The notes under the pieces are model-generated. The model saw nothing but the letters and a program-made list of their open reading frames with translations. It made no database searches and was not told where the DNA came from. The translations under genes were made by a program, and so were the position numbers. A stretch of 26,513 bases of DNA from a virus, in IMG/VR virus record IMGVR_UViG_3300022074_000317, positions 1 through 26,513 of that record. One strand, written 5' to 3'. Position 1 is the stretch's first letter; every line of letters begins with the position of its first letter. Below, one piece after another: positions 18,276-26,513 of the stretch.

Positions 18276-19056
18276 TAACTAACTCCTTTAATTTAAGCAT
18301 GTCTGCTTCTCGTTTATATTTAATGTCATCCTCTATGTGCATAGCCACCACCTGAGAAGGATCACAATAGCTCTTTAACTCTTTGGTATACTCTATTGTT
18401 TTACCAAGAGCATCTGGATCAAGAGCAACAATAATCTTATCAAACGTATCAAGATATTCTTTATGCTCTCTCAAAAGATTCGTTCCTAGAAGTGCAACAC
18501 CAGTGACTCCTAGTATGTTCTGTCCCACCACTGTAGCAGAGACGCAATCCTCAACCACTACAGCTATCTTCCTGCATGGATTAATACAGTAAGAATAATA
18601 CTTACCTGACTTACCATACTTGTACCACTTTGGATGCGAGTCATACAAAGCTCTACCAATAGCGTCAACAAGTCTGCCATTCTTATATATAGGAAACACT
18701 GCTCTCTTATCTTTGACATCGTAGAGCAGGTCTATCATAAGATCCCATCGTGCTTTAAAGCGTTGCACATAAGCGTTATCTCCATCTGTTATCTGCTCAG
18801 GCATCTCAAACTTCTCGTGTGGCTGTCCCTCTATCTCGCCACTTAGTTTTTGTTTAATAGTATCTACTAACATGTTCGTCAGGAAAGAACCCTTCACATC
18901 ACACGATGCACGATAGCAGTTGTACAGCAACATGCCATCTAGGTTACTGACCGAAAACTTCTTGACACCATCACACTTAGGACAATCCATATTAAGTGTC
19001 TCTCCTTCTTTGATGTCAAGGTTCTGTAAGAAATCTCTTGATGGTAGGTTAGGCAT
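18268..19056 (-). CDS. TOPRIM DNA primase with zinc-binding domain (262 aa)
   Basis: Makes RNA primers at the replication fork. An N-terminal zinc ribbon is formed by C25/C28 (CPKCDG) and C47/C52 (NCYRASC). The TOPRIM fold follows, with E169 in VVVEDCVSATVVG and D213/D215 in IIVALDPDALGK, the metal-binding acidic residues. It resembles the primase half of T7 gp4 but ends without a helicase domain. I chose the ATG at 19056, which has GGGAG upstream and overlaps the integrase stop by 8 bases; the longer open frame to 19188 runs inside the integrase gene. The GIY-YIG gene overlaps its end. Confidence 0.9.
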   Translation of the reverse strand: MPNLPSRDFLQNLDIKEGETLNMDCPKCDGVKKFSVSNLDGMLLYNCYRASCDVKGSFLTNMLVDTIKQKLSGEIEGQPHEKFEMPEQITDGDNAYVQRFKARWDLMIDLLYDVKDKRAVFPIYKNGRLVDAIGRALYDSHPKWYKYGKSGKYYSYCINPCRKIAVVVEDCVSATVVGQNILGVTGVALLGTNLLREHKEYLDTFDKIIVALDPDALGKTIEYTKELKSYCDPSQVVAMHIEDDIKYKREADMLKLKELVNA

Positions 19057-19972
19057 TCTTGTATGTCTCCCTTCTACTGAGTGCGTTACTCGCTGAGTTG
19101 TAGGTATGTTTAATGTAGGGTGCGATTGAGTTAGGGCTATTGTGTCCTGACACTGCCATGATCTGAGTGGTATCAACACCTGCTTCAACCATCTCAGTGA
19201 TAGCTGTTCTTCTCATGTCCATAGCTGTAAGCTCCTTTGGTAAGTTCGCTACTTGTTTAATCTGATTTACCAGTGGGCTAATATCTACATCATTGTAGAT
19301 TCTATACTGCCCACCTCTAGGATAGGGGTGAGGTACAACATAGTTTTGAAAGCTAAACTCTTCATGCTGTTTAGTGAGCATGGCAAGTAGATTCTCTTCT
19401 ATAGGCAAATGTACCTCTGCCCTCTTCTTCGATTGTTCGAGGTCAAGTCTTTTTTCATCGAAGTTGATATTGCTCCACTCTAGAGATCTCATATCCCCTA
19501 CCCTTTGAGCGAATGAGTAAGCCATGTGTACAATCAAACCAATGCTTCTCCACTTATATTGAGAGTAAGCCGTGTCTAAGAACACCTTTACTTGATCGCT
19601 TGTCCACATGACCTTACGTCCACGCTCCTTCATCTTACTAACGCTCCGCATTGGGTTACGCACAATCAACTCCAGTTCCTCAGCCATATTGAGAACTATT
19701 GAAGTCGTTGTCGCCATCACGTTAGCAGTTCGTACACCTCTCTTCAACCACATCTGATACGCTGACTTACAGTGAGCCACACTGAGTTTAGCCAACTTAA
19801 CATCCCCTAACTTTGATGCAGGAGTTATTGGTGTACCTAACACTCCAGACAGCCTATACTCATACCCTTTCTGAGTCTGCGGTCTAAGTGCCAAGAACTG
19901 AGGACTACGTAGGTAGTAGCCTACCATATCACTCAGATTCTTTATCTCTTTTTTGTTGTCTTGTAAGTTCAT
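19049..19972 (-). CDS. Tyrosine recombinase / phage integrase (307 aa)
   Basis: Site-specific recombinase family. A SAM-like core-binding domain occupies about residues 12-115 and the catalytic domain about 120-295. Predicted active-site residues are R157 (AQRVGDMRSLEW), K182 or K183 (SKKRAEVHLP), R254 (MDMRRT), H277 (GHNS) and nucleophile Y286 (APYIKH), with the standard nine-residue H-Y spacing. The first histidine of the usual HxLR box is a methionine (M251), an uncommon but tolerated variant. It overlaps the small membrane gene upstream by 44 bases; a later ATG at 19924 would cut into the core-binding domain. No attachment site could be recognised, so integration is unproven; resolution of genome multimers is an alternative role. 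Confidence 0.9.
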   Translation of the reverse strand: MNLQDNKKEIKNLSDMVGYYLRSPQFLALRPQTQKGYEYRLSGVLGTPITPASKLGDVKLAKLSVAHCKSAYQMWLKRGVRTANVMATTTSIVLNMAEELELIVRNPMRSVSKMKERGRKVMWTSDQVKVFLDTAYSQYKWRSIGLIVHMAYSFAQRVGDMRSLEWSNINFDEKRLDLEQSKKRAEVHLPIEENLLAMLTKQHEEFSFQNYVVPHPYPRGGQYRIYNDVDISPLVNQIKQVANLPKELTAMDMRRTAITEMVEAGVDTTQIMAVSGHNSPNSIAPYIKHTYNSASNALSRRETYKNA

Positions 19973-20066
19973 TATAATTACCTACGCAAAGTGCTACGAA
20001 AATCAAAAACCATATTACTACATATACGAGCATTTGTAAATCCCATATTTTCATTTTCTTTCCCAT
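19929..20066 (-). CDS. Small single-span membrane protein next to endolysin (45 aa)
   Basis: A short gene starting inside the end of the endolysin gene (16-base overlap) and ending inside the integrase gene. Residues about 11-29 (MLVYVVIWFLIFVALCVG) are one strong transmembrane segment, with a Lys-rich N-terminus and a charged C-tail (RQQKRDKESE). Its position right after the endolysin makes a holin or pinholin-like role worth considering, but one span and context are the only evidence. No clear ribosome site; translation is probably coupled. Confidence 0.6.
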   Translation of the reverse strand: MGKKMKIWDLQMLVYVVIWFLIFVALCVGNYNELTRQQKRDKESE

Positions 20067-20479
20067 CTGTAGAATATGTGTCTGTTTATCCTAACTGTTT
20101 TAGTCTTTGTTCTTGCCCATGCAGGTCGCACATAGGTTGCGTGATAGTGCGTTGCACCCTCTGTAACATCTAGTGTTATCTTATTTGTCATAACCATAGA
20201 CGCATATCGAATAGAGTTTTGCCACTTCTCACTTTTCATATTGACATCATCTTTCTTGCCATCACAATACCATGAGAACTGGCATTTGCCAAGAACAACT
20301 TTGCCATTTTTATATGTGAGTCCTTGCTTGATCACATCACATATAGTATTAGGGTAACGGCTGTCCTTTACTCTGTTCATAACTACTTGTGCTACAGCTA
20401 TCTGTCCTGCCATTGGCTGATTTTTAGCTTCATGGTAGATGTTTGTTGCCATACACATCAATGCTGTTTCTAATATCAT
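20051..20479 (-). CDS. SleB-type cell wall hydrolase, probable endolysin (142 aa)
   Basis: A peptidoglycan hydrolase of the SleB (Hydrolase_2) family, likely the lysis enzyme. It has MCMATNIYHEAKNQPMAGQ with the predicted catalytic glutamate E17, then AVAQVVMNRVKD, CQFSWYCDG and GATHYHATYVRPAWA, all typical of the family, and covers the domain from end to end. No signal peptide is present, because the N-terminus belongs to the fold; a holin or other export route would be needed. Its location in the early-strand operon, not with the structural genes, is notable. Confidence 0.9.
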   Translation of the reverse strand: MILETALMCMATNIYHEAKNQPMAGQIAVAQVVMNRVKDSRYPNTICDVIKQGLTYKNGKVVLGKCQFSWYCDGKKDDVNMKSEKWQNSIRYASMVMTNKITLDVTEGATHYHATYVRPAWARTKTKTVRINRHIFYRWERK

Positions 20480-20482
20480 CCG

Positions 20483-20632
20483 TTACTCTTCTGTTTTTTC
20501 TTCATTTATTATCTTCTTGAATCGTTGTACAATACTGAAGTCTTCTTCAATAGTATTGTCAAACTCTTTATCAATAAGTTTACCATCTAATATAGATAGG
20601 TCGTTCCAGTCATTTTCAAATTCATGTTTCAT
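20483..20632 (-). CDS. Small acidic protein (49 aa), unknown
   Basis: Begins MKHEFENDWNDLSILDGK and ends INEEKTEE; strongly acidic with a short central helix. GAGGT lies at good spacing before the ATG at 20632, whose first base is shared with the upstream stop (TAATG). It ends three bases before the endolysin start. The junction pattern and ribosome site support a real gene; no function can be given. Confidence 0.65.
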   Translation of the reverse strand: MKHEFENDWNDLSILDGKLIDKEFDNTIEEDFSIVQRFKKIINEEKTEE

Positions 20633-20796
20633 TAGTGTAATACCTCATAATCAAAATCAGGATTGTGTTCTACATATCCTACTATCTTTGCGTCTAACAT
20701 AAGCTCGTGATCTATATCCCAAGTACAGTCTCTACATATAGTTTCAAGATCATCAGCGTCATGTTCTACTTTTATTATTATATATCCATTAGCCAT
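20632..20796 (-). CDS. Small acidic protein with CxxC (54 aa), unknown
   Basis: Begins MANGYIIIKVEHDADDLETI and contains CRDC at residues 21-24, which could bind a metal or form a disulfide. The C-terminus is VEHNPDFDYEVLH. The IIIKVEHDADDLETIC pattern suggests a small beta-alpha fold. Its stop overlaps the next start as TAATG, and its start lies one base beyond the upstream stop. Not recognised. Confidence 0.65.
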   Translation of the reverse strand: MANGYIIIKVEHDADDLETICRDCTWDIDHELMLDAKIVGYVEHNPDFDYEVLH

Positions 20797-20797
20797 A

Positions 20798-20926
20798 TCA
20801 CGTTATCCTTATAAAAAATTCAGCACATCCGTTTAGAATAAGTGTTATACCAATTAACATAGTCATTGTCAAGAGTAAAGCTTGACCTTCTGTTGGATCT
20901 TTATTGTCGTTATCATTCTTCTTCAT
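20798..20926 (-). CDS. Small membrane protein (42 aa)
   Basis: I chose the ATG at 20926, preceded by GGAGGA at good spacing and overlapping the upstream gene by 14 bases; a longer open frame to 21058 lies wholly inside that gene. The first 15 residues are polar and charged (KKNDNDNKDPTEGQ). Residues about 16-32 (ALLLTMTMLIGITLILNG) form one transmembrane helix. Role unknown; it is one of several one-span proteins upstream of the endolysin. Confidence 0.65.
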   Translation of the reverse strand: MKKNDNDNKDPTEGQALLLTMTMLIGITLILNGCAEFFIRIT

Positions 20927-21158
20927 GGCAAAAGTTCCTCCAAAATTTACAGTTGTTATCGCCCTTACATACACGTTCATGCTTGGCATTTTCCCAACAT
21001 TCTGACTGCCAAGGTGAGAAATACTTAATAGTAAATCTATCCACCCAATCTTGACCATCTACTACCCATAACCCAAATATAGGTAGTGGTATTAGTAGCA
21101 GGAAGACTACAAAGAAAGCCATGCCAAAGCCTTTATTATGATAAGGTTGCATCTTCAT
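20913..21158 (-). CDS. Membrane-anchored Cys-rich small protein (81 aa)
   Basis: Residues about 12-33 (GMAFFVVFLLLIPLPIFGLW) form one transmembrane segment. The remaining 45 residues hold four cysteines (C54, C64, C70, C77) and several tryptophans, which would suit a small disulfide-bonded domain outside the inner membrane. A second ATG at 21152 has better ribosome-site spacing and would remove two residues. It overlaps the genes on both sides. An envelope role such as lysis or exclusion is possible but unproven. Confidence 0.65.
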   Translation of the reverse strand: MKMQPYHNKGFGMAFFVVFLLLIPLPIFGLWVVDGQDWVDRFTIKYFSPWQSECWENAKHERVCKGDNNCKFWRNFCHEEE

Positions 21159-21240
21159 CTTCCTCTTCTAAATTACTCCAATACTCAATCCAATCACCTT
21201 GTTGGTCTTTGGTTAAGTCATTCCACTCTTCTTCTGTCAT
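21136..21240 (-). CDS. Very small acidic protein (34 aa)
   Basis: Begins MTEEEWNDLTKDQQGDWIEY and ends EEEDEDATLS. The start at 21240 directly follows the TAG of the upstream gene, and AGGAAGGGA lies upstream. Its end overlaps the next gene by 23 bases. The composition (very acidic, two Trp-x-x helices) looks like a small soluble interaction protein; phages use such proteins to bind host enzymes, but no family is recognised. Confidence 0.55.
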   Translation of the reverse strand: MTEEEWNDLTKDQQGDWIEYWSNLEEEDEDATLS

Positions 21241-21459
21241 CTATATTCCCTTCCTTATGTTCAAACCCTTTGGGTCATACTGGTCAGCTATCTCTTCAGG
21301 TAGATGCCTACTCGCTGTAGGGTCATTGAAGAAGTCATTGCAATACAGCAAGAATATTAGAAACAACATAGTGTACCCAAAGTATTTAAGAAACTTATGG
21401 AATATTATGTATGCTTCCTGTGCTTGCTTCAACGCTTCAGCTTTTACTTCATCACTCAT
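21241..21459 (-). CDS. Small single-span membrane protein (72 aa)
   Basis: A polar helical N-terminus (MSDEVKAEALKQAQEAY) is followed by a transmembrane segment at about residues 25-40 (KYFGYTMLFLIFLLYC) and a polar C-terminal tail of about 30 residues. The start overlaps the upstream gene by 8 bases and the stop is directly followed by the next start. Family not recognised; holin-like size, but only one span. Confidence 0.65.
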   Translation of the reverse strand: MSDEVKAEALKQAQEAYIIFHKFLKYFGYTMLFLIFLLYCNDFFNDPTASRHLPEEIADQYDPKGLNIRKGI

Positions 21460-21652
21460 ACTGTTCTCCTACCCATCGTACAATCTCTCCAGTATTCCAC
21501 TTAGCACATTCTATCTGTGCATCTTCATATGTGTCAAGTACTTTGACTGGACTATCTTGCGTCCACATAGCACCACATCCTTCTTTGACATACTCAGTAT
21601 CTTCTTCTTCAAAAGGTGTAAAGAGTATTGCCCACTTAACTTGTCTCGTCAT
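21452..21652 (-). CDS. Small protein of unknown function (66 aa)
   Basis: Begins MTRQVKWAILFTPFEEED and has TYEDAQIECAKWN and IVRWVGEQYE toward the end, the look of a small conserved phage protein with a beta-strand start and a helix. A strong ribosome site (GGAGGAG) precedes the ATG at 21652, and it overlaps the upstream gene by 17 bases. Two cysteines at residues 26 and 49. No function assigned. Confidence 0.65.
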   Translation of the reverse strand: MTRQVKWAILFTPFEEEDTEYVKEGCGAMWTQDSPVKVLDTYEDAQIECAKWNTGEIVRWVGEQYE

Positions 21653-21773
21653 CTCTTAACTCCTCCTCTAGTTTCTCTTTTAGTTTTTCTTTTAAATAGT
21701 CAGCATGTTGTTTATTCTTCTCACTGTCACCAAAGTCTATTATTATATGTTCGTCAAACCAATCTTTAGTCAT
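21636..21773 (-). CDS. Small charged helical protein (45 aa)
   Basis: Begins MTKDWFDEHIIIDFGDSEKN and ends in a long charged helix (YLKEKLKEKLEEELRDDE). It starts 8 bases inside the methyltransferase gene end and ends 17 bases inside the next gene. The compact overlaps support it as a real gene. Function unknown; the helix could mediate dimerisation. Confidence 0.6.
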   Translation of the reverse strand: MTKDWFDEHIIIDFGDSEKNKQHADYLKEKLKEKLEEELRDDETS

Positions 21774-22893
21774 CAATCTCTACTCCTTTTAATATGTTAG
21801 CTATTGTTGAGACACAGAAGCCATTACCTAGCATCTTGTATCGTTGGCTGTTTGATACAGGCACACGCATATTAGTGCTTGTAACACCGTACTTAGTGCA
21901 ATCGTCAGGCACAGTTTGTAATCTCTCACACTCAAGCGGAGTCAATGCTCTCCAATACATCTCCTCATGATTAACTACTACATTATCTTTCTGTACTGTC
22001 GATAGTGTATTAGTCTTGCCATCACCTCTAGTCTCAAGTCTTGGCTCTGCCTTGATGTCAGCATTGTAGTCGTCACGTTTGCCTGTGTCAGGGTTAATCT
22101 TACGATTAATAATCTGACCACATTCTACCTTAGGCATTCGCCAACCACCTTGCATAGTCGTCAGCGTAGGACTCTTGCCTTGCCTACTGTACACACGCTT
22201 GATAATGTCATAGCCTTTAAGATCAGCTACGCCAACTTGTTTGCAACCATTCTTGTCAAAGACTATCTGTCGTCTAGCCTTGTTATAGTAATGACTAAGA
22301 TTACCACCTTTGAAATAGTTTGCATCTAAGCAATGTGACTTGTCTCTATCTGCCATAGCACCATCTTCTAATATATCATTGAGTACAACATCCTCATCTT
22401 CTATATCATTATAAATAATGTTTGTCCAGTAAAATCTTTTCCTACTCTGTGCAGAACTCTTAGCACTATTCTCTAAGTAAAGACTTATGTCAGGGAAGAT
22501 CTCTTTGAATGTCTGCGTAAAATAGTCTCGCCATTGTACAGGCATAGACGCTACATTCTCAATCAATACTCTGTCAACATCTAATTCTTTGAGAGCTTGT
22601 ATCAGCACCTTAGACATATCTCTTGGGTCATCTTGGAACTTCTGCAAACCTGCAACTGAGTAGCTCTGACAAGGGAATCCTGCTACTAGCAGATCAATCT
22701 TCTTGCCTTTGAGCTTTGTCCAGTTCCTAGCATCACCATGTCGAATGATATTAGGAAAGTTATATTTACTCACCGCAGTAGGATAGGGGTCTATCTCAAA
22801 TGCATGATACTCATCAGGCTCAATACCTAGTTTGTCTAGTGCAAACATAGTGCCTGAGAAACCATCAAAGAAACTTGCTACTGTCTTATACAT
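21766..22893 (-). CDS. DNA (cytosine-5) methyltransferase (375 aa)
   Basis: Methylates cytosine in DNA, probably to shield phage DNA from host restriction or to compete with host methylation. Motifs in order: I FDGFSG (9-14) for AdoMet, II FEID (E33), IV FPCQS with catalytic C75, VI ENV (112-114), VIII QSRKR (149-153), a target-recognition region at about 240-320, IX ALTPLECERLQ and X LGNGFCVSTIANIL. All are intact and length is normal. No partner restriction enzyme lies next to it, so it is an orphan methylase; the recognition sequence cannot be read from sequence. It overlaps small genes on both sides by 8 bases. Confidence 0.94.
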   Translation of the reverse strand: MYKTVASFFDGFSGTMFALDKLGIEPDEYHAFEIDPYPTAVSKYNFPNIIRHGDARNWTKLKGKKIDLLVAGFPCQSYSVAGLQKFQDDPRDMSKVLIQALKELDVDRVLIENVASMPVQWRDYFTQTFKEIFPDISLYLENSAKSSAQSRKRFYWTNIIYNDIEDEDVVLNDILEDGAMADRDKSHCLDANYFKGGNLSHYYNKARRQIVFDKNGCKQVGVADLKGYDIIKRVYSRQGKSPTLTTMQGGWRMPKVECGQIINRKINPDTGKRDDYNADIKAEPRLETRGDGKTNTLSTVQKDNVVVNHEEMYWRALTPLECERLQTVPDDCTKYGVTSTNMRVPVSNSQRYKMLGNGFCVSTIANILKGVEIDD

Positions 22894-23032
22894 CTTTTAA
22901 CTCCTTCCTCAAGAGTTTAGCTTGGTATATTTCATGTTCATGTCTCCGCTTGGCAACCTTTTCTCTCTTGTCATTGATAGTCATGGTTGCCTTACGGATA
23001 AACATTGGGTTTCTATTCTTAGGCTGTTTCAC
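22886..23032 (-). CDS. Small basic protein (48 aa), GTG start
   Basis: Reads MKQPKNRNPMFIRKATMTIN from a GTG at 23032 and ends LLRKELKDV. It is strongly basic in its middle (KREKVAKRRHEHE) and may bind nucleic acid or form a helix. It overlaps the upstream gene by 14 bases and the methyltransferase by 8. An in-frame ATG at 23005 is an alternative start. The ribosome site is weak for both, so confidence is moderate. Confidence 0.55.
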   Translation of the reverse strand: MKQPKNRNPMFIRKATMTINDKREKVAKRRHEHEIYQAKLLRKELKDV

Positions 23033-23390
23033 TTTCTTTGTCAAGTACCCACTCCCATAGTATATTACTTCTAAGACTCTCTATTGTAGAGTCAGGCTCT
23101 ATACTGTCCCCTTCATCATCACATCCTAGCACTAATCCTTTATTGACTAGATTGATAGGTGGGTGTGCAGTATTGTATCTGAATGACCAAGGATACTTAA
23201 TAGGTGCATATAATCCTTCATCATCTACATATATACCATCAAATCCTATAGGTATACGAACTATGTCAAAAGCTCTTGGTTGATATTTAGTAAATGAATA
23301 ACCAATCAATCTGTATATAGATTTATAGTCACCATCATACTGAACTTCTTTTATAGTATTAAACATTGGATCTATTAATATTGCTTTCAT
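23019..23390 (-). CDS. DUF3846-like protein (123 aa)
   Basis: The pattern MKAILIDPMFNTIKEVQYDG, then GIYVDDEGLY, NLVNKG and LVLGCDDEGDS resembles the DUF3846 domain found in phages and plasmids, where a VDEEG-like strand and a (N/G)PVVVxGxDDEG-like strand recur. The biochemical role is unknown. It has a GGAGG ribosome site, and the start shares one base with the upstream stop (TAATG). The C-terminal 25 residues are acidic. Confidence 0.6.
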   Translation of the reverse strand: MKAILIDPMFNTIKEVQYDGDYKSIYRLIGYSFTKYQPRAFDIVRIPIGFDGIYVDDEGLYAPIKYPWSFRYNTAHPPINLVNKGLVLGCDDEGDSIEPDSTIESLRSNILWEWVLDKESETA

Positions 23391-23755
23391 TACGCTACCT
23401 CCTTCGCAAAGTATTTCTTAGCTGTATCATCATCTATAATATATTCGCCACCATTTTGCAAGTCTTTTATTAAAAAAGGTTTCTTCCTAGCTTTACGTCT
23501 ATACCCTGACAGCTTGAACTCTTTGCCATCAAGCCTAGCTATCTTGTCAAGATCAAGCTTGTATATACCTGCCCAATCTTCTAGCTCCTTCTCACTCTGA
23601 GACTTAGCACCTTTTATCCTAAGGTTAACTTTGAATGTTACTTCTGTGTCACTAAAGTTAGCTCCACCTACTTCTACTTCAAAGTTGTCCAGATCTATTA
23701 GCTTATCTTGTAAGACTAACCGCATCTCTTTCACTATCTTTCTGTTTAATAACAT
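23390..23755 (-). CDS. Conserved-looking small phage protein (121 aa), unknown
   Basis: I chose the ATG at 23755 (MLLNRKIVKEMRL), which has GAGGT at good spacing; a longer frame to 23815 overlaps the 26-aa gene upstream. The sequence has a basic N-terminal helix, an alternating strand region (SDTEVTFKVNLRIKG) and a GYRRKARKKPFLIKD segment. The basic GYRxxARKKPF motif might contact nucleic acid. No family name could be given. Confidence 0.65.
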   Translation of the reverse strand: MLLNRKIVKEMRLVLQDKLIDLDNFEVEVGGANFSDTEVTFKVNLRIKGAKSQSEKELEDWAGIYKLDLDKIARLDGKEFKLSGYRRKARKKPFLIKDLQNGGEYIIDDDTAKKYFAKEVA

Positions 23756-23775
23756 TTGTTTGACCTCATTAGTTG

Positions 23776-23856
23776 TTAAAAATAATAGTTGTACACTACG
23801 TCTACTATATAGCATACTGTTACTAATGCAATGAATATATTAAATTCTTTTTTCAT
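23776..23856 (-). CDS. Membrane microprotein (26 aa)
   Basis: Reads MKKEFNIFIALVTVCYIVDV and then VYNYYF: a lysine-rich start and one hydrophobic helix that makes up nearly the whole protein. A strong ribosome site (GAGGAGA) lies before the ATG, which overlaps the upstream stop as ATGA. The combination of a strong ribosome site, coupling and an uninterrupted membrane helix supports it, but a 26-aa gene cannot be certain. Confidence 0.5.
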   Translation of the reverse strand: MKKEFNIFIALVTVCYIVDVVYNYYF

Positions 23857-24608
23857 AGTCTCTCCTCACAGAATATACCACACTCAAAGCTATAGTTCTT
23901 TAATGATCTACCCTTAGCATCTTTAGGTAACTCATGTAAGAATAATCGCTTACCCTTATACTTAACTAGCTTTGCTCCAATACGTTTGGATTGTTCTAGT
24001 CTCTTCTCAAATACCTCAGGAAACTTTTCTCGTACAAGATTCCAATAGGTAGGTGAACCTGCTTTGACACACCCAATACAGTTTGCATTAGGAAAGCCAT
24101 ACCTATAGATCTTAGGTAACTCTACATTGTTCTTTGCTAGTATGTCAAAACAATCTTGTTTAGTTAACCCAAGATCTACAAGTATAGGTAGCAAGGTATC
24201 ACGTTCCGTCATCTTAAATCTATCTGCTCTGTTCTTCTCCTCAGCAGTAAATCCAAGCACTAGATAGTCAGAGTTATTCTTGTTCTCCCATTGCTGTCTA
24301 GCGTGTTTCTTTAGTCTCATGGTACAAGGCGCACCTGCTATTCCTGCCATGTACTTATGCTTATTCCATACAGTTTCCGCAGAGCAATCAGGAAAATCCT
24401 CATTGATAGCGTACTCTATCTTTATACCTAACCACTTCTCCACATCATACAGAAACCTTTGGTTATCCTCATGCTCCTCTTTGACTGGATTATTTACTAC
24501 TCTAACATTGTTAGTATCTCCGTAGTGTTTCAGCGTCATTAGTGTAGCTATGGCACTAGCACTCCCACATGAAAACCATACAGTAATATCTTTGTTTGTT
24601 ATGCCCAT
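23853..24608 (-). CDS. PAPS-reductase-like / PP-loop ATPase family protein (251 aa)
   Basis: Belongs to the adenine nucleotide alpha-hydrolase (PAPS reductase/DndC-like) superfamily. The PP-loop is FSCGSAS at residues 12-18. Five cysteines may hold an Fe-S cluster or act in sulfur transfer: C95 (APCTMRLKK), C177/C180 (NCIGC) and C243/C247 (ECGIFC). Members activate a substrate with ATP and then transfer or reduce sulfur: sulfate assimilation, tRNA thiolation or DNA phosphorothioation. Here the CxxC and CxxxC pairs favour a modification enzyme over a plain CysH, but no other dnd genes are in view. It overlaps genes on both sides. Confidence 0.78.
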   Translation of the reverse strand: MGITNKDITVWFSCGSASAIATLMTLKHYGDTNNVRVVNNPVKEEHEDNQRFLYDVEKWLGIKIEYAINEDFPDCSAETVWNKHKYMAGIAGAPCTMRLKKHARQQWENKNNSDYLVLGFTAEEKNRADRFKMTERDTLLPILVDLGLTKQDCFDILAKNNVELPKIYRYGFPNANCIGCVKAGSPTYWNLVREKFPEVFEKRLEQSKRIGAKLVKYKGKRLFLHELPKDAKGRSLKNYSFECGIFCEERL

Positions 24609-24934
24609 CTTAAGTATCTCTCTCCATCTTTCTCGTAGCTCATACTTCTTCTATAATCTTTACTGTACCTAATGTCAATATATTTTTCATAGTCTTCTAA
24701 AATCCATAGTGGTTCTGCTCCGCTACCTCTACACAAAAACCCATTACACATATACAGATAGTCACCCTCTGCTGACCACTCGCTATCCATATCTAAATAA
24801 CAGAATTTACCATGCACTCTGTCTTCTGTAATCTTTGTAGTCTCCCATAGAAACTCATCACTATTTACGCAATCGTAACCTAATCGCCATACTTCACCTA
24901 CTTTTAATTCTTTTGTATTCTCAATTAGTTTCAT
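24599..24934 (-). CDS. Protein of unknown function (111 aa)
   Basis: I chose the ATG at 24934 (MKLIENTKELKVGEVWRLGY) with AGGAAAG upstream; a longer frame to 24985 runs through the zinc-ribbon gene. The sequence looks like a small beta-rich domain (VGEVWRL, TTKITEDRVHGKFCYLD) with an acidic middle and a basic C-terminus (RYSKDYRRSM). It overlaps the PAPS-reductase-like gene by 10 bases. Not recognised. Confidence 0.65.
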   Translation of the reverse strand: MKLIENTKELKVGEVWRLGYDCVNSDEFLWETTKITEDRVHGKFCYLDMDSEWSAEGDYLYMCNGFLCRGSGAEPLWILEDYEKYIDIRYSKDYRRSMSYEKDGERYLRWA

Positions 24935-25040
24935 CACTTTCCTCTTCTGCTTTTTCACACTCTCCGCATTGATATTCCCACTCATCTCCGCAATGCTGAC
25001 AATCTGCTAATTTATATAATCCGTTTATAATCTCATACAT
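24921..25040 (-). CDS. Zinc-ribbon microprotein (39 aa)
   Basis: Contains CQHC at residues 14-17 and CGEC at 25-28, a CxxC-N7-CxxC arrangement typical of a small zinc ribbon, followed by an acidic tail (EKAEEESDETN). GAGGT precedes the ATG at 25040, and the end overlaps the next gene by 14 bases. Zinc ribbons of this size bind nucleic acid or proteins; the actual partner is unknown. Confidence 0.65.
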   Translation of the reverse strand: MYEIINGLYKLADCQHCGDEWEYQCGECEKAEEESDETN

Positions 25041-25066
25041 TTGTTATACCTCGTTGATACTATTTG

Positions 25067-25684
25067 TCAATACTTCTTTACTTTTTCTACTATTACATTC
25101 CTACCGCCAAACTTATAGCAAGCCAAACAATCCTTACATTTTTGACCAGTACAGTTTTGCTCCTCTACGTTCTCATGTTCTAGCACATTGTTAAACACCT
25201 TGTCAAAGTTTTCAGGCGGTTCATACATTATATTACTCATGATAGGATTACTATATACTAGTATTAAGTTCTTAGGTTTATCTCTAGTTTGTAGTATCTT
25301 CTTAATCAAGTCTTTACGTTTTGTCCATAGTGCAAACGTAGTTAGCTCATTCTTATCACATATGTTAAATAGGTTTATCGTATGGTTAAGATTGATCAAC
25401 TCACCATGAGCGGAGAACCTAAAGTATAGCTTCATAATCGTAGGTAATTGTTGTGTATGTAAAACAGAGCTACTCAATAGAACACTATTCCTCTCTAGAC
25501 AATCCACCATATTTTTGCGATACGTCATTAGCATTTGCCAAGAATAACACTTCTTACATATAGTTTGTTTCTTAGCTTTAAACATCTTCTGACAGAAATT
25601 ATTGCTCGTAGTGTTTGTAGATATAGCATCAAAGTCAATGAGCTTTCCTGTCATCTTTGATACGTGTACTTGTTGTAAGTTCAT
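25067..25684 (-). CDS. Gp88-like cysteine-rich phage protein (205 aa)
   Basis: Resembles the phage gene-product-88 family: an N-terminal cysteine group (C31, C43, C46 and C62, with CKKCYSWQM and DCLERN), a YFRFSAHGELINLNHT segment followed by ALWTKRKDLI in the middle, and a C-terminal group of four (C178, C183, C186, C189 in NCTGQKCKDCLACYKF). Eight positioned cysteines suggest iron-sulfur or zinc binding. Function of the family is not established. The start at 25684 has AGAGG upstream and overlaps the preceding stop as ATGA; a later ATG ten codons on is possible. Confidence 0.7.
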   Translation of the reverse strand: MNLQQVHVSKMTGKLIDFDAISTNTTSNNFCQKMFKAKKQTICKKCYSWQMLMTYRKNMVDCLERNSVLLSSSVLHTQQLPTIMKLYFRFSAHGELINLNHTINLFNICDKNELTTFALWTKRKDLIKKILQTRDKPKNLILVYSNPIMSNIMYEPPENFDKVFNNVLEHENVEEQNCTGQKCKDCLACYKFGGRNVIVEKVKKY

Positions 25685-25785
25685 GGCTGATAACCTCTCC
25701 AAATCCACCAAATCCAAAATATAAATATTAGTGCATATCCAAACGTCATACATAATATTATATCGCCTAATAGATAATTAGTCAT
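25681..25785 (-). CDS. Membrane microprotein (34 aa)
   Basis: Reads MTNYLLGDIILCMTFGYALI then FIFWIWWIWRGYQP: one long hydrophobic helix with a Trp-rich end. GAGGT lies at close spacing before the ATG at 25785, and the stop overlaps the next start as ATGA. An ATG five bases upstream leads straight to a stop. One of a set of one-span microproteins in this operon; function unknown. Confidence 0.6.
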   Translation of the reverse strand: MTNYLLGDIILCMTFGYALIFIFWIWWIWRGYQP

Positions 25786-25803
25786 AGCATACCTCGCTTT
25801 TAG

Positions 25804-25828
25804 TTGTCAATCTTAAAGTGCCTATCAA
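25804..25828 (-). repeat. Copy 2 of a 25-bp inverted-orientation element
   Basis: On the - strand this gap reads TTGATAG, G, CACTTT, AAGAT, TGACAA. It matches the element at 26134-26158 (+ strand) at 22 of 25 positions by hand comparison. It lies between the first and second genes of the operon and ends 18 bases before the 34-aa gene. Confidence 0.65.
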
Positions 25829-25837
25829 GTTTAAAGT

Positions 25838-25859
25838 AAGCTCTAACTAAATAGAGCTT
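25838..25859. terminator. Hairpin at end of first operon gene, possible attenuator
   Basis: AAGCTCTA at 25838-25845 pairs perfectly with TAGAGCTT at 25852-25859 around a six-base loop. It spans the stop codon of the 72-aa gene. On the - strand it is followed by TTACTTT, a weak T tract, so it may be a partial terminator or attenuator after the first gene, or an RNA-end stabiliser. Confidence 0.45.
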
Positions 25860-26061
25860 GACCTTCTTCATAAGCTTTCTTGTATTTTCTGTCAAGCTTT
25901 TTCTTCATCTTCTTATCAGCAAACGTACCTCTTGGCGTTCTGAATATTACAAGTTTACCGCCTATCAAAGTACCATTGCCTTGATACCCATGGTTAACTC
26001 GCATTTGTCCGTTGTTCACTTTACGGAATGATATGTCTGTTATTTTAATTGTAGTTGTCAT
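25843..26061 (-). CDS. Small basic protein, first gene of the leftward operon (72 aa)
   Basis: Begins MTTTIKITDISFRKVNNGQM, with a strand-rich middle (GTLIGGKLVIFRTPRGTFA) and a very basic helix (DKKMKKKLDRKYKKAYEE). The GCGAGG ribosome site precedes the ATG at 26061, and the promoter at 26096-26125 lies just upstream. First-expressed small basic phage proteins often act on the host, but that is only a suggestion here. No family recognised. Confidence 0.65.
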   Translation of the reverse strand: MTTTIKITDISFRKVNNGQMRVNHGYQGNGTLIGGKLVIFRTPRGTFADKKMKKKLDRKYKKAYEEGQALFS

Positions 26062-26095
26062 AGTGACCTCGCTTTCTTATTTATGGCTGATTAAT

Positions 26096-26125
26096 GTTAT
26101 ACTATCAATACTAATTACTTGTCAA
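26096..26125 (-). promoter_or_regulatory. Sigma70-like promoter for the leftward operon
   Basis: On the - strand TTGACA (26120-26125), an 18-base spacer and TATAAC (26096-26101). The -35 is perfect and the -10 differs by one base. Transcription would start near 26089, about 28 bases before the first gene. It is the best promoter match seen in the window and the likely driver of the whole early operon. Confidence 0.75.
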
Positions 26126-26140
26126 TAACTTTATTGATAG
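26102..26140. promoter_or_regulatory. Operator-like palindromes overlapping the promoter
   Basis: CTATCAATA at 26102-26110 and TATTGATAG at 26132-26140 are perfect inverted copies with centres 30 bases apart, about three helical turns. Inside them TCAATAA (26122-26128) and TTATTGA (26131-26137) form a second palindrome that covers most of the -35 box. The layout suits a dimeric regulator that blocks or activates the promoter. No regulator gene was recognised in the window. Confidence 0.55.
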
Positions 26141-26158
26141 ACACTTTGAGAGTGACAA
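26134..26158 (+). repeat. Copy 1 of a 25-bp inverted-orientation element
   Basis: On the + strand reads TTGATAG, A, CACTTT, GAGAG, TGACAA. It matches the - strand element at 25804-25828 with three differences. Its first bases overlap the TATTGATAG operator arm. The two copies face opposite ways about 305 bp apart, enclosing the first gene and its promoter. Confidence 0.65.
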
Positions 26159-26164
26159 ATATAA

Positions 26165-26202
26165 GGGTGTGGTTGTCACCTATGTCACCATAGCTCACAC
26201 CC
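26165..26202 (-). terminator. Hairpin upstream of the operon promoter, possible terminator
   Basis: GGGTGTG (26165-26171) pairs with CACACCC (26196-26202) around a 24-base loop. On the - strand it is followed by TTATATTT. This could end a transcript arriving from the right before the operon promoter starts a new one. The loop holds two GTCACC repeats (26175-26180 and 26184-26189), and TTGTCAC (26173-26179) is also the inverse of GTGACAA at 26152-26158, so a protein-binding role is an alternative. Confidence 0.4.
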
Positions 26203-26203
26203 C

Positions 26204-26513
26204 TACATTAAACATATTTGTCCAGTTCCGTCTTTCGACTAGTTGCAACTCTGTATTGTCTAGTTCAGCACCCACGAATCTCAGTGAGTTATTGTAGTAT
26301 AACCGACCATCATTTACTTATCGATCTGTCGTGTCAGCGTGTTTCAAGCTGTCCTACTATTTGGTTTTATTGCGTCTACGTCTACCAATCTGCTTGTCGG
26401 ATTCAACCAACTTGGATATTAATTTAGTCGTTTTCGTTTTGGTCGTCAAGTTTTTTTTTTACTAAATTTTACTATTTATATTTTTACTAGGTCGTCAAAT
26501 TGTGTAGTTGTTT
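26204..26513. other. Gene-free region with promoter-like signals and a broken reading frame
   Basis: No intact gene was found on either strand. GGTCGTCAA occurs at 26441-26449 and 26490-26498 (TTGACGACC on the - strand). The first copy has a T10 run beside it (26451-26460), and on the - strand this gives an A-tract, TTGACG, 17 bases and TAAATT (26421-26426), a possible promoter. The - strand frame from about 26450 to 26195 is protein-like but has three stops. The + strand open frame at 26218-26427 looks like a shadow of it. Confidence 0.5.

Follow-up and report, generated by a model that had tools for sequence, protein, structure and literature searches.

What is the role of a 25-bp element that occurs in two inverted copies around the first early gene of a marine phage? 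The question was raised by the window, i.e. the whole stretch of 26,513 bases analysed here, which encodes an integrase, a DNA primase, a DNA methyltransferase and a PAPS reductase. The encoded DNA polymerase shares 61% identity with that of Roseobacter phage CRP-2 over the full length and 57% with that of Puniceispirillum phage HMO-2011, and the order of integrase, primase and polymerase in the window is that of CRP-2, so that polymerase and gene order both assign it to the HMO-2011 type. Since the genomes of CRP-2 and HMO-2011 are 54-55 kb long, the window is, judging from its genes, about half of an HMO-2011-type marine podophage. The early and late genes of CRP-2 diverge from a single control region; the early genes of the window point leftward from ~26.1 kb, which places the inverted pair at their start. 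An endolysin-like protein (PHROGs) is also encoded at 20051-20479, within the early gene cluster and adjoining the integrase gene. Concerning published work, the HMO-2011-type member CRP-3 was demonstrated to integrate (PMC6918029), a term search of the main text of PMC9038755, which deals with HMO-2011-type phages, returned no words such as promoter or repressor, and our literature search found no paper joining HMO-2011 with an inverted repeat.

Element A (26134-26158, plus strand) reads TTGATAGACACTTTGAGAGTGACAA, or TTGTCACTCTCAAAGTGTCTATCAA on the early-gene strand, and element B (25804-25828, minus strand) reads TTGATAGGCACTTTAAGATTGACAA and is inverted with respect to A. They are identical at 22 of 25 positions, with mismatches at positions 8, 15 and 19, and with their flanks included the arms reach 32 nt and 84% complementarity. 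The preliminary description had reported this pair, which proved to be real: over 200 dinucleotide shuffles of positions 25001-26513, the best inverted 25-mer averaged 17.9 matches with a maximum of 20, none reaching 22, and across the whole window no other inverted 25-mers up to 1 kb apart match at 22/25 or better. A third, partial look-alike had also been proposed at 25054-25070, which did not hold, as that stretch has no CACTTT core and does not figure in the list of the window's eight best matrix hits; it overlaps the gene3 stop codon and the leader of the next gene, and matrix scoring of the window found no third copy of the element. A contains a partial dyad, CACTnTnAnAGTG, that B does not fit.

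All the features around the pair lie on the minus strand, the early-gene strand. Upstream of A, a promoter-like TTGACG-17-TAAATT (26421-26449), identified by consensus match only, precedes a putative structured leader RNA (26210-26420), taken as non-coding, and then a leader hairpin (26160-26209) that adjoins A and carries a GNRA-type loop (GUGA). Between A and gene1 is a second promoter-like sequence, TTGACA-18-TATAAC (26096-26125), found by eye since the consensus promoter scan demands a final T. Gene1 (25843-26061) encodes a basic protein of 72 aa belonging to no family, and a small hairpin (25838-25859) spans its stop codon just ahead of B; the counterpart of this hairpin in the close relative described below is terminator-like on the opposite strand. 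It was thus correctly noted from the start that the two copies frame a promoter and the first gene. B ends 5 nt from AGCGAGG (25792-25798), by eye the probable ribosome-binding site of gene2 (25681-25785), whose 34-aa product is probably membrane-spanning (by eye). Gene3 follows (25067-25684; 205 aa) and resembles Pfam GP88 below the cut-off. As for gene1, no relative was found in the phage collection at E-values up to 1, and its predicted structure (pLDDT 58) is too poor a model to judge a repressor fold.

The preliminary description had suggested scanning relatives for the element and had counted its absence from close relatives, in both copies and together with a lack of inverted reads, against the proposed roles. 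Both copies were in fact conserved in IMGVR_UViG_3300006916_000250 (hereafter G001; its locus is L003), the sole other contig returned by two 25-mer pattern scans of IMG/VR, which demand exact matches and which diverged copies escape. Among 19 related records searched with up to three mismatches, G001 alone has the element, in two copies, the other 18 having none. A further hit, in an Osedax symbiont genome, was rejected: it lies inside a 647-aa ORF on the other strand, and about 0.5 chance hits were expected by our estimate. Between the window and G001, B is identical (25/25), A is kept at 23/25, and the TTGACA-18-TATAAC promoter is identical over 30 bases, compared with 51 differences at the 206 third codon positions of gene3. 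Gene1 points the same way in both phages, with an A-B gap of 305 bp in the window and 318 bp in G001. Its DNA is 66% identical and its protein 60% identical to the G001 counterpart. In the alignment of window 25843-26061 with L003 3276-3506, 34 of 73 third codon positions of gene1 differ while the flanks are nearly identical, which points to a gene1 that was replaced, or is changing very fast, between the two phages. Neither of the two changes in A is compensated in B. At positions 7 and 18 of the transcribed strand, A differs from B in an identical manner in both phages, which implies that the arms were not homogenised. On the late side of G001, an ORF (L003 515-1000) appears to us to encode a peptidase M15-type endolysin.

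Related loci were collected with gene3 as bait. One IMG/VR scan gave 265 relatives of gene3, a gene that CRP-5 and Greip, too, have near the beginning of their early genes. With the bait and four aligned relatives, 80 of the 265 loci were kept, 63 of them with 1000 bases or more upstream. Eight of these 63 loci (G001, L097, L100, L145, L158, L108, L164 and L166) contained an inverted 25-mer pair with 21 or more matches and 14 a direct one, the best inverted pair of L099 reaching 20/25. Among the eight, the pairs of L145 and L158 resemble ribosome-binding sites of opposed genes, that of L108 is AT-rich, and those of L164 and L166 are the GTCCAACGTTGGAC palindrome. The window, G001, L097, L099 and L100 have one architecture in common, namely a hairpin, A, gene1, the inverted B and the next start codon. 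A starts 19-21 nt past the start of the hairpin GTGACAA in all five phages, the A-B gap is 300 bp in L097, 303 bp in L099 and 302 bp in L100, and the end of B is separated from the next start codon by 18 nt in the window and G001, 14 nt in L097, 13 nt in L099 and 12 nt in L100. The A/B sequences of these five phages fall into two groups unrelated to each other, and L099 and L100 are closely related phages.

In L097, L099 and L100, gene1 encodes 82 aa (L097 and L099 being 78% and 85% identical to L100, respectively) and has no detectable similarity to gene1 of the window; a search of the phage collection with gene1 of L100 found no relative at E-values up to 0.01. Between the two groups, the gene that follows B is different as well. 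Since a different gene1 occupies the same layout, the frame is kept while gene1 is exchanged between the groups.

An RNA model of the hairpin next to A, built from the five phages and searched against 145 sources, has strong matches in these five only (E-values of 1.7e-17 or better), and the next match (E = 0.034) is on the reverse strand of one of the five. In the model, the stem of the window and G001 is misregistered by one base; pair counts are given for a hand-set register, in which all 15 stem pairs are standard in the five phages, which carry four distinct sequences (the hairpin is identical in the window and G001); six pairs differ in both bases, and two are G-U in some of the phages. 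The loop stays of the GNRA type, GUGA being replaced by GCAA in L097. Because the hairpin covaries, uses G-U pairs and keeps its loop, the upstream neighbour of A looks like a structured RNA of the early-gene strand.

Beyond the hairpin, a long leader lies upstream of the module (26160-26440, minus strand, in the window; 2320-2660 in L097; 3300-3655 in L099; 3030-3380 in L100), and TTGAC aligns at the position of the promoter-like TTGACG in all five phages. The consensus fold of the L097, L099 and L100 leaders has 77 pairs, of which seven changed on both sides, three of these in the hairpin adjoining A. The window leader with its hairpin folds with z = -1.6, 16 of 200 shuffles being equally good, which is not significant. 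No Rfam family was found at E-values up to 1 in positions 20000-26513 of the window, 3000-4010 of L099 or 2000-3010 of L097. A coding leader was rejected: the minus-strand frame from ~26450 to 26190 holds TAG TAG and TAA, Pfam and PHROGs scans were empty, and a back-translated pattern matched G001 only; by eye, about half of the differences from G001 in this frame are at third positions. The plus-strand ORF at 26218-26427 was likewise rejected as a gene, its differences from G001 being mostly non-conservative (by eye). It is possible that the leader is a new phage non-coding RNA.

The second line of evidence is the joint change of A and B. The two element ends read GTACCTAC and GTAGGTAC in L097, GTACGCAC and GTGCGTAC in L099, and GTACCCAC and GTGGGTAC in L100, and A matches the reverse complement of its own B at 22, 19 and 20 of 22 positions, respectively. 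By letters, A of L099 matches B of L100 as well as its own (19/22 each). The predicted duplex energies were lowest with the own B throughout: -28.1 kcal/mol for A of L097 (-17.1 and -24.0 with the other two), -26.4 for L099 (-15.9 and -23.8) and -28.2 for L100 (-18.5 and -20.1). The window and G001 have one common B sequence. Taken over the own pairs, the duplexes are 22-25 nt long, which corresponds to the near-perfect duplex of approximately two turns or more of an RNase III stem, with energies of -26.4 to -30.6 kcal/mol. The mismatches, read as RNA, show no bias towards G-U: they are C-U, C-A and U-G in the window, C-A, C-U and U-G in G001, U-U, G-U and C-A in L099, and G-U and C-A in L100.

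How specific is this complementarity? The duplex of a 40-nt segment taken from the hairpin end with the 60 nt that precede the next start codon had a lower energy than all 1000 shuffles in each of the five phages, with the L097 segment shifted by 14 nt, and the fold from the hairpin to the gene2 start has z = -4.1, none of 100 shuffles being as good. In a control over the 63 gene3 loci, the four hairpin-bearing loci ranked 1-4; its anchors were partly set by hand, at the gene after gene1 for G001, L097 (14 nt inside the gene) and L100, and for the other loci where the tblastn match began, a point that can sit some codons inside gene3. When one rule was applied to all loci, L100 ranked 1, L099 5, L097 9 and G001 17 of 63, with a median best z of -3.6. 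Given these ranks, upstream complementarity alone does not single out the loci with the module. The weaker result of the uniform control slightly reduced our confidence in pairing at the RNA level, from evenly balanced to a shade under, and slightly raised that in DNA operators, which stays well short of even.

Inverted repeats were also compared in 15 control regions, with 40 shuffles each. The best inverted 25-mer exceeded all 40 shuffles in the window, G001, CRP-2, CRP-603 and HMO-2011, the pairs of the last three being on the late-gene side. The pair of L012 (20/25) was equalled by one shuffle in 40, and direct pairs beyond all 40 shuffles were found in L020, CRP-603 and CRP-1. The module is absent from every isolate whose control region was read.

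Two readings of the module have to be weighed above all. The RNA reading holds that A base-pairs with B within the early transcript, or that the leader finds its partner in trans, as the c4 RNA of P1/P7 does; from the sequences compared here, we give this close to an even chance. The duplex energies by themselves prove nothing, as any inverted DNA repeat folds as RNA, and the case for RNA is built on a layout that is conserved and on A and B having changed jointly. The neighbours of A and B that are conserved across the five phages appear to be those of the RNA level, i.e. the hairpin and the ribosome-binding site, and promoters are not shared: by eye, a promoter directly follows A in the window group, and a promoter-like TTGACA-17-TAAYGT overlaps the start of B in L097, L099 and L100. 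From the presence and conservation of the pair, the covarying hairpin, the matching of A with B in five phages and the predicted duplex, we infer that transcription crosses A, that the two elements pair in the cell and that gene2 is affected. The same data can be read as two DNA operators for one regulator of the phage or its host, possibly the gene1 product, perhaps looping the 300 bp between them; A would then lie at about -69 to -45 of the gene1 promoter (by eye) and B at the gene2 start, and the early genes would be under their control. This we hold to be plausible, if appreciably less than an even bet. A contains the partial dyad and is followed downstream by a good sigma-70-like promoter that G001 shares unchanged, and gene1 is small, basic and first in line; the overlap of B with TTGACA-17-TAAYGT would suit an operator, and drifting specificity of a protein would also shift A and B jointly. 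Two covarying positions of B in L097, L099 and L100 are upstream of the likely start point of this B promoter, and would therefore act only in longer transcripts or as DNA. Against operators, the dyad is lost in B and the elements of L097, L099 and L100 are not palindromic (by eye), no repressor-like domain was found in the early proteins scanned (a set that leaves out several small ORFs), the promoter position relative to A and B differs between the groups while the hairpin and ribosome-binding site are constant, and the A-B distances of the window and G001 differ by 13 bp, a non-integral number of helical turns. Our estimate for the DNA reading is nonetheless kept where it is because CRP-1, CRP-345 and CRP-603 carry operator-like palindrome repeats, so that operator-like arrays exist in this phage group: in the control region, GTCCAACGTTGGAC is present at two exact and two one-mismatch sites in CRP-1 and at three sites in CRP-345, and CRP-603 has four copies of TGTGATCACA.

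Three other explanations fare worse. The preliminary description had considered regulator sites, recombination sites or parts of an invertible segment; the regulator idea gained from the conservation of A, B and their neighbours in G001 and from the module in three more phages, and the recombination idea lost. An invertible segment of 305 bp, fimS-like, or recombination sites or terminal repeats of a gene1 cassette would suit a promoter enclosed by inverted repeats some 300 bp apart in a phage that encodes an integrase, and the exchange of gene1 between two phage groups within a constant frame; inversion could also keep the arms alike. It is nevertheless quite improbable, because the five phages show a single orientation and no invertase came to light: among the window proteins scanned, the integrase (19049-19972), ~6 kb off, was the one recombinase to be identified, and relatives of it were not found in genome_contigs. 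The letters specific to A and to B stay separate in the window and G001, the window arms differ near their middle (position 15 is G in A and A in B), and by eye no target-site duplication was seen beside A or B. That the elements are themselves promoters, for a phage RNA polymerase or sigma-70, is very unlikely. Conserved TTGATA..TTGACA hexamers lie inside the element, and the legend of Fig. 2 in PMC6918029 names RNAP among the genes of several phage groups, the group being unspecified; but the element was rejected as such a promoter, since neither copy has a consistent -10 after it (by eye) and the window and G001 have only two copies each, 18 other records having none. RNA polymerase was absent among the window genes searched, and the term 'RNA polymerase' from the main text of PMC9038755. 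Least credible of all is chance similarity or an old neutral duplication, for which it can be said that there are two copies only, that phage DNA is AT-rich and that, under the uniform control, other gene3 loci also have strong upstream complementarity. Against it stand the shuffles (0/200), the identity of B in G001 (25/25) beside 51/206 differing third positions in gene3, and the recurrence of the module next to the same hairpin in three further phages, which contradicts chance.

Several repeats were observed in passing in other phages of the collection. The four TGTGATCACA copies of CRP-603 (MZ892991.1) lie within ~120 bp, about 450-330 bp before the first gene. GTCCAACGTTGGAC occurs at several early sites of CRP-1 (MK613343.1) and CRP-345 (MZ892990.1) and also in L164 and L166. 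A near-palindrome, GTCCCAAGTTGGGAC, is present in L165, L171 and L173 and looks operator-like, and paired AGTTATAACT palindromes were found in L010 (2204-2287) and where the control region begins in L028 and L031, with similar ones in L025, in each case on its late-gene side.

If A and B do pair as RNA, a long early transcript from TTGACG-17-TAAATT would carry the leader, the hairpin, A, gene1, B and gene2 onward, and pairing of A with B (22/25) would close gene1 into a loop, the duplex stopping 5 nt short of the gene2 ribosome-binding site. Such a duplex may control the translation of the downstream genes; alternatively, its ~22-25 bp of double strand may be an RNase III target, cutting of which would separate the gene1 mRNA from the rest. 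The promoter downstream of A (26125-26096) would give an mRNA with B and without A, free of the duplex unless the leader acts in trans, and a leader fragment ending in A could pair in trans with this B-only mRNA, as c4 does. In HMO-2011-type phages, a leader RNA whose pairing code is particular to each phage and surrounds an exchangeable gene would then be part of early control. If the pair acts as DNA, it would mark the operators of a regulator not yet recognised. That a covarying leader hairpin, whose tail A pairs across an exchangeable gene with the tail B, amounts to an undescribed kind of phage riboregulator is a proposal we consider doubtful. Were it true, the tail pair would differ from phage to phage and each leader RNA would best recognise its own early mRNA, a specificity code like that of P1/P7 c4 heteroimmunity, made from inverted repeats around a cassette gene.

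How does the module compare with known systems? In invertible promoters of the fimS type, ~300 bp with a promoter inside are likewise enclosed by inverted repeats; unlike these, A and B have one orientation in five phages and no dedicated recombinase was recognised. Operator pairs and arrays, such as OL/OR of lambda and the stoperators of mycobacteriophage L5, repeat the same short site around early promoters and genes, as here, but A and B are at best weakly palindromic and two in number, no repressor gene was recognised, and their conserved neighbours appear to be of the RNA level. Long-range RNase III stems are formed around 16S and 23S rRNA, and RNase III sites are known in T7 early mRNA; the likeness is that inverted repeats around a segment would form a transcript duplex of about two turns, potentially cleavable, and the difference that what A and B enclose is a gene for a small protein, within the early operon of a phage, and that cleavage is putative. 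The c4 RNA (Rfam RF01695) lies upstream of its own target in the same transcript and pairs with it via short matches. In P1/P7 it acts as antisense to the ant mRNA, which it binds around the ribosome-binding site (PMC12197685). It is the nearest known case for the trans form of A/B pairing, in that a structured phage RNA is proposed here to pair near the ribosome-binding site of another phage gene. The leader regions of the window, L097 and L099 have no Rfam match, and the target of c4, ant, encodes an antirepressor, which the gene after B is not known to be. In contrast to the short matches of c4, the A/B match is one continuous stretch of 22-25 nt, and the partner of A sits beyond a whole gene, ahead of the ribosome-binding site rather than over it.
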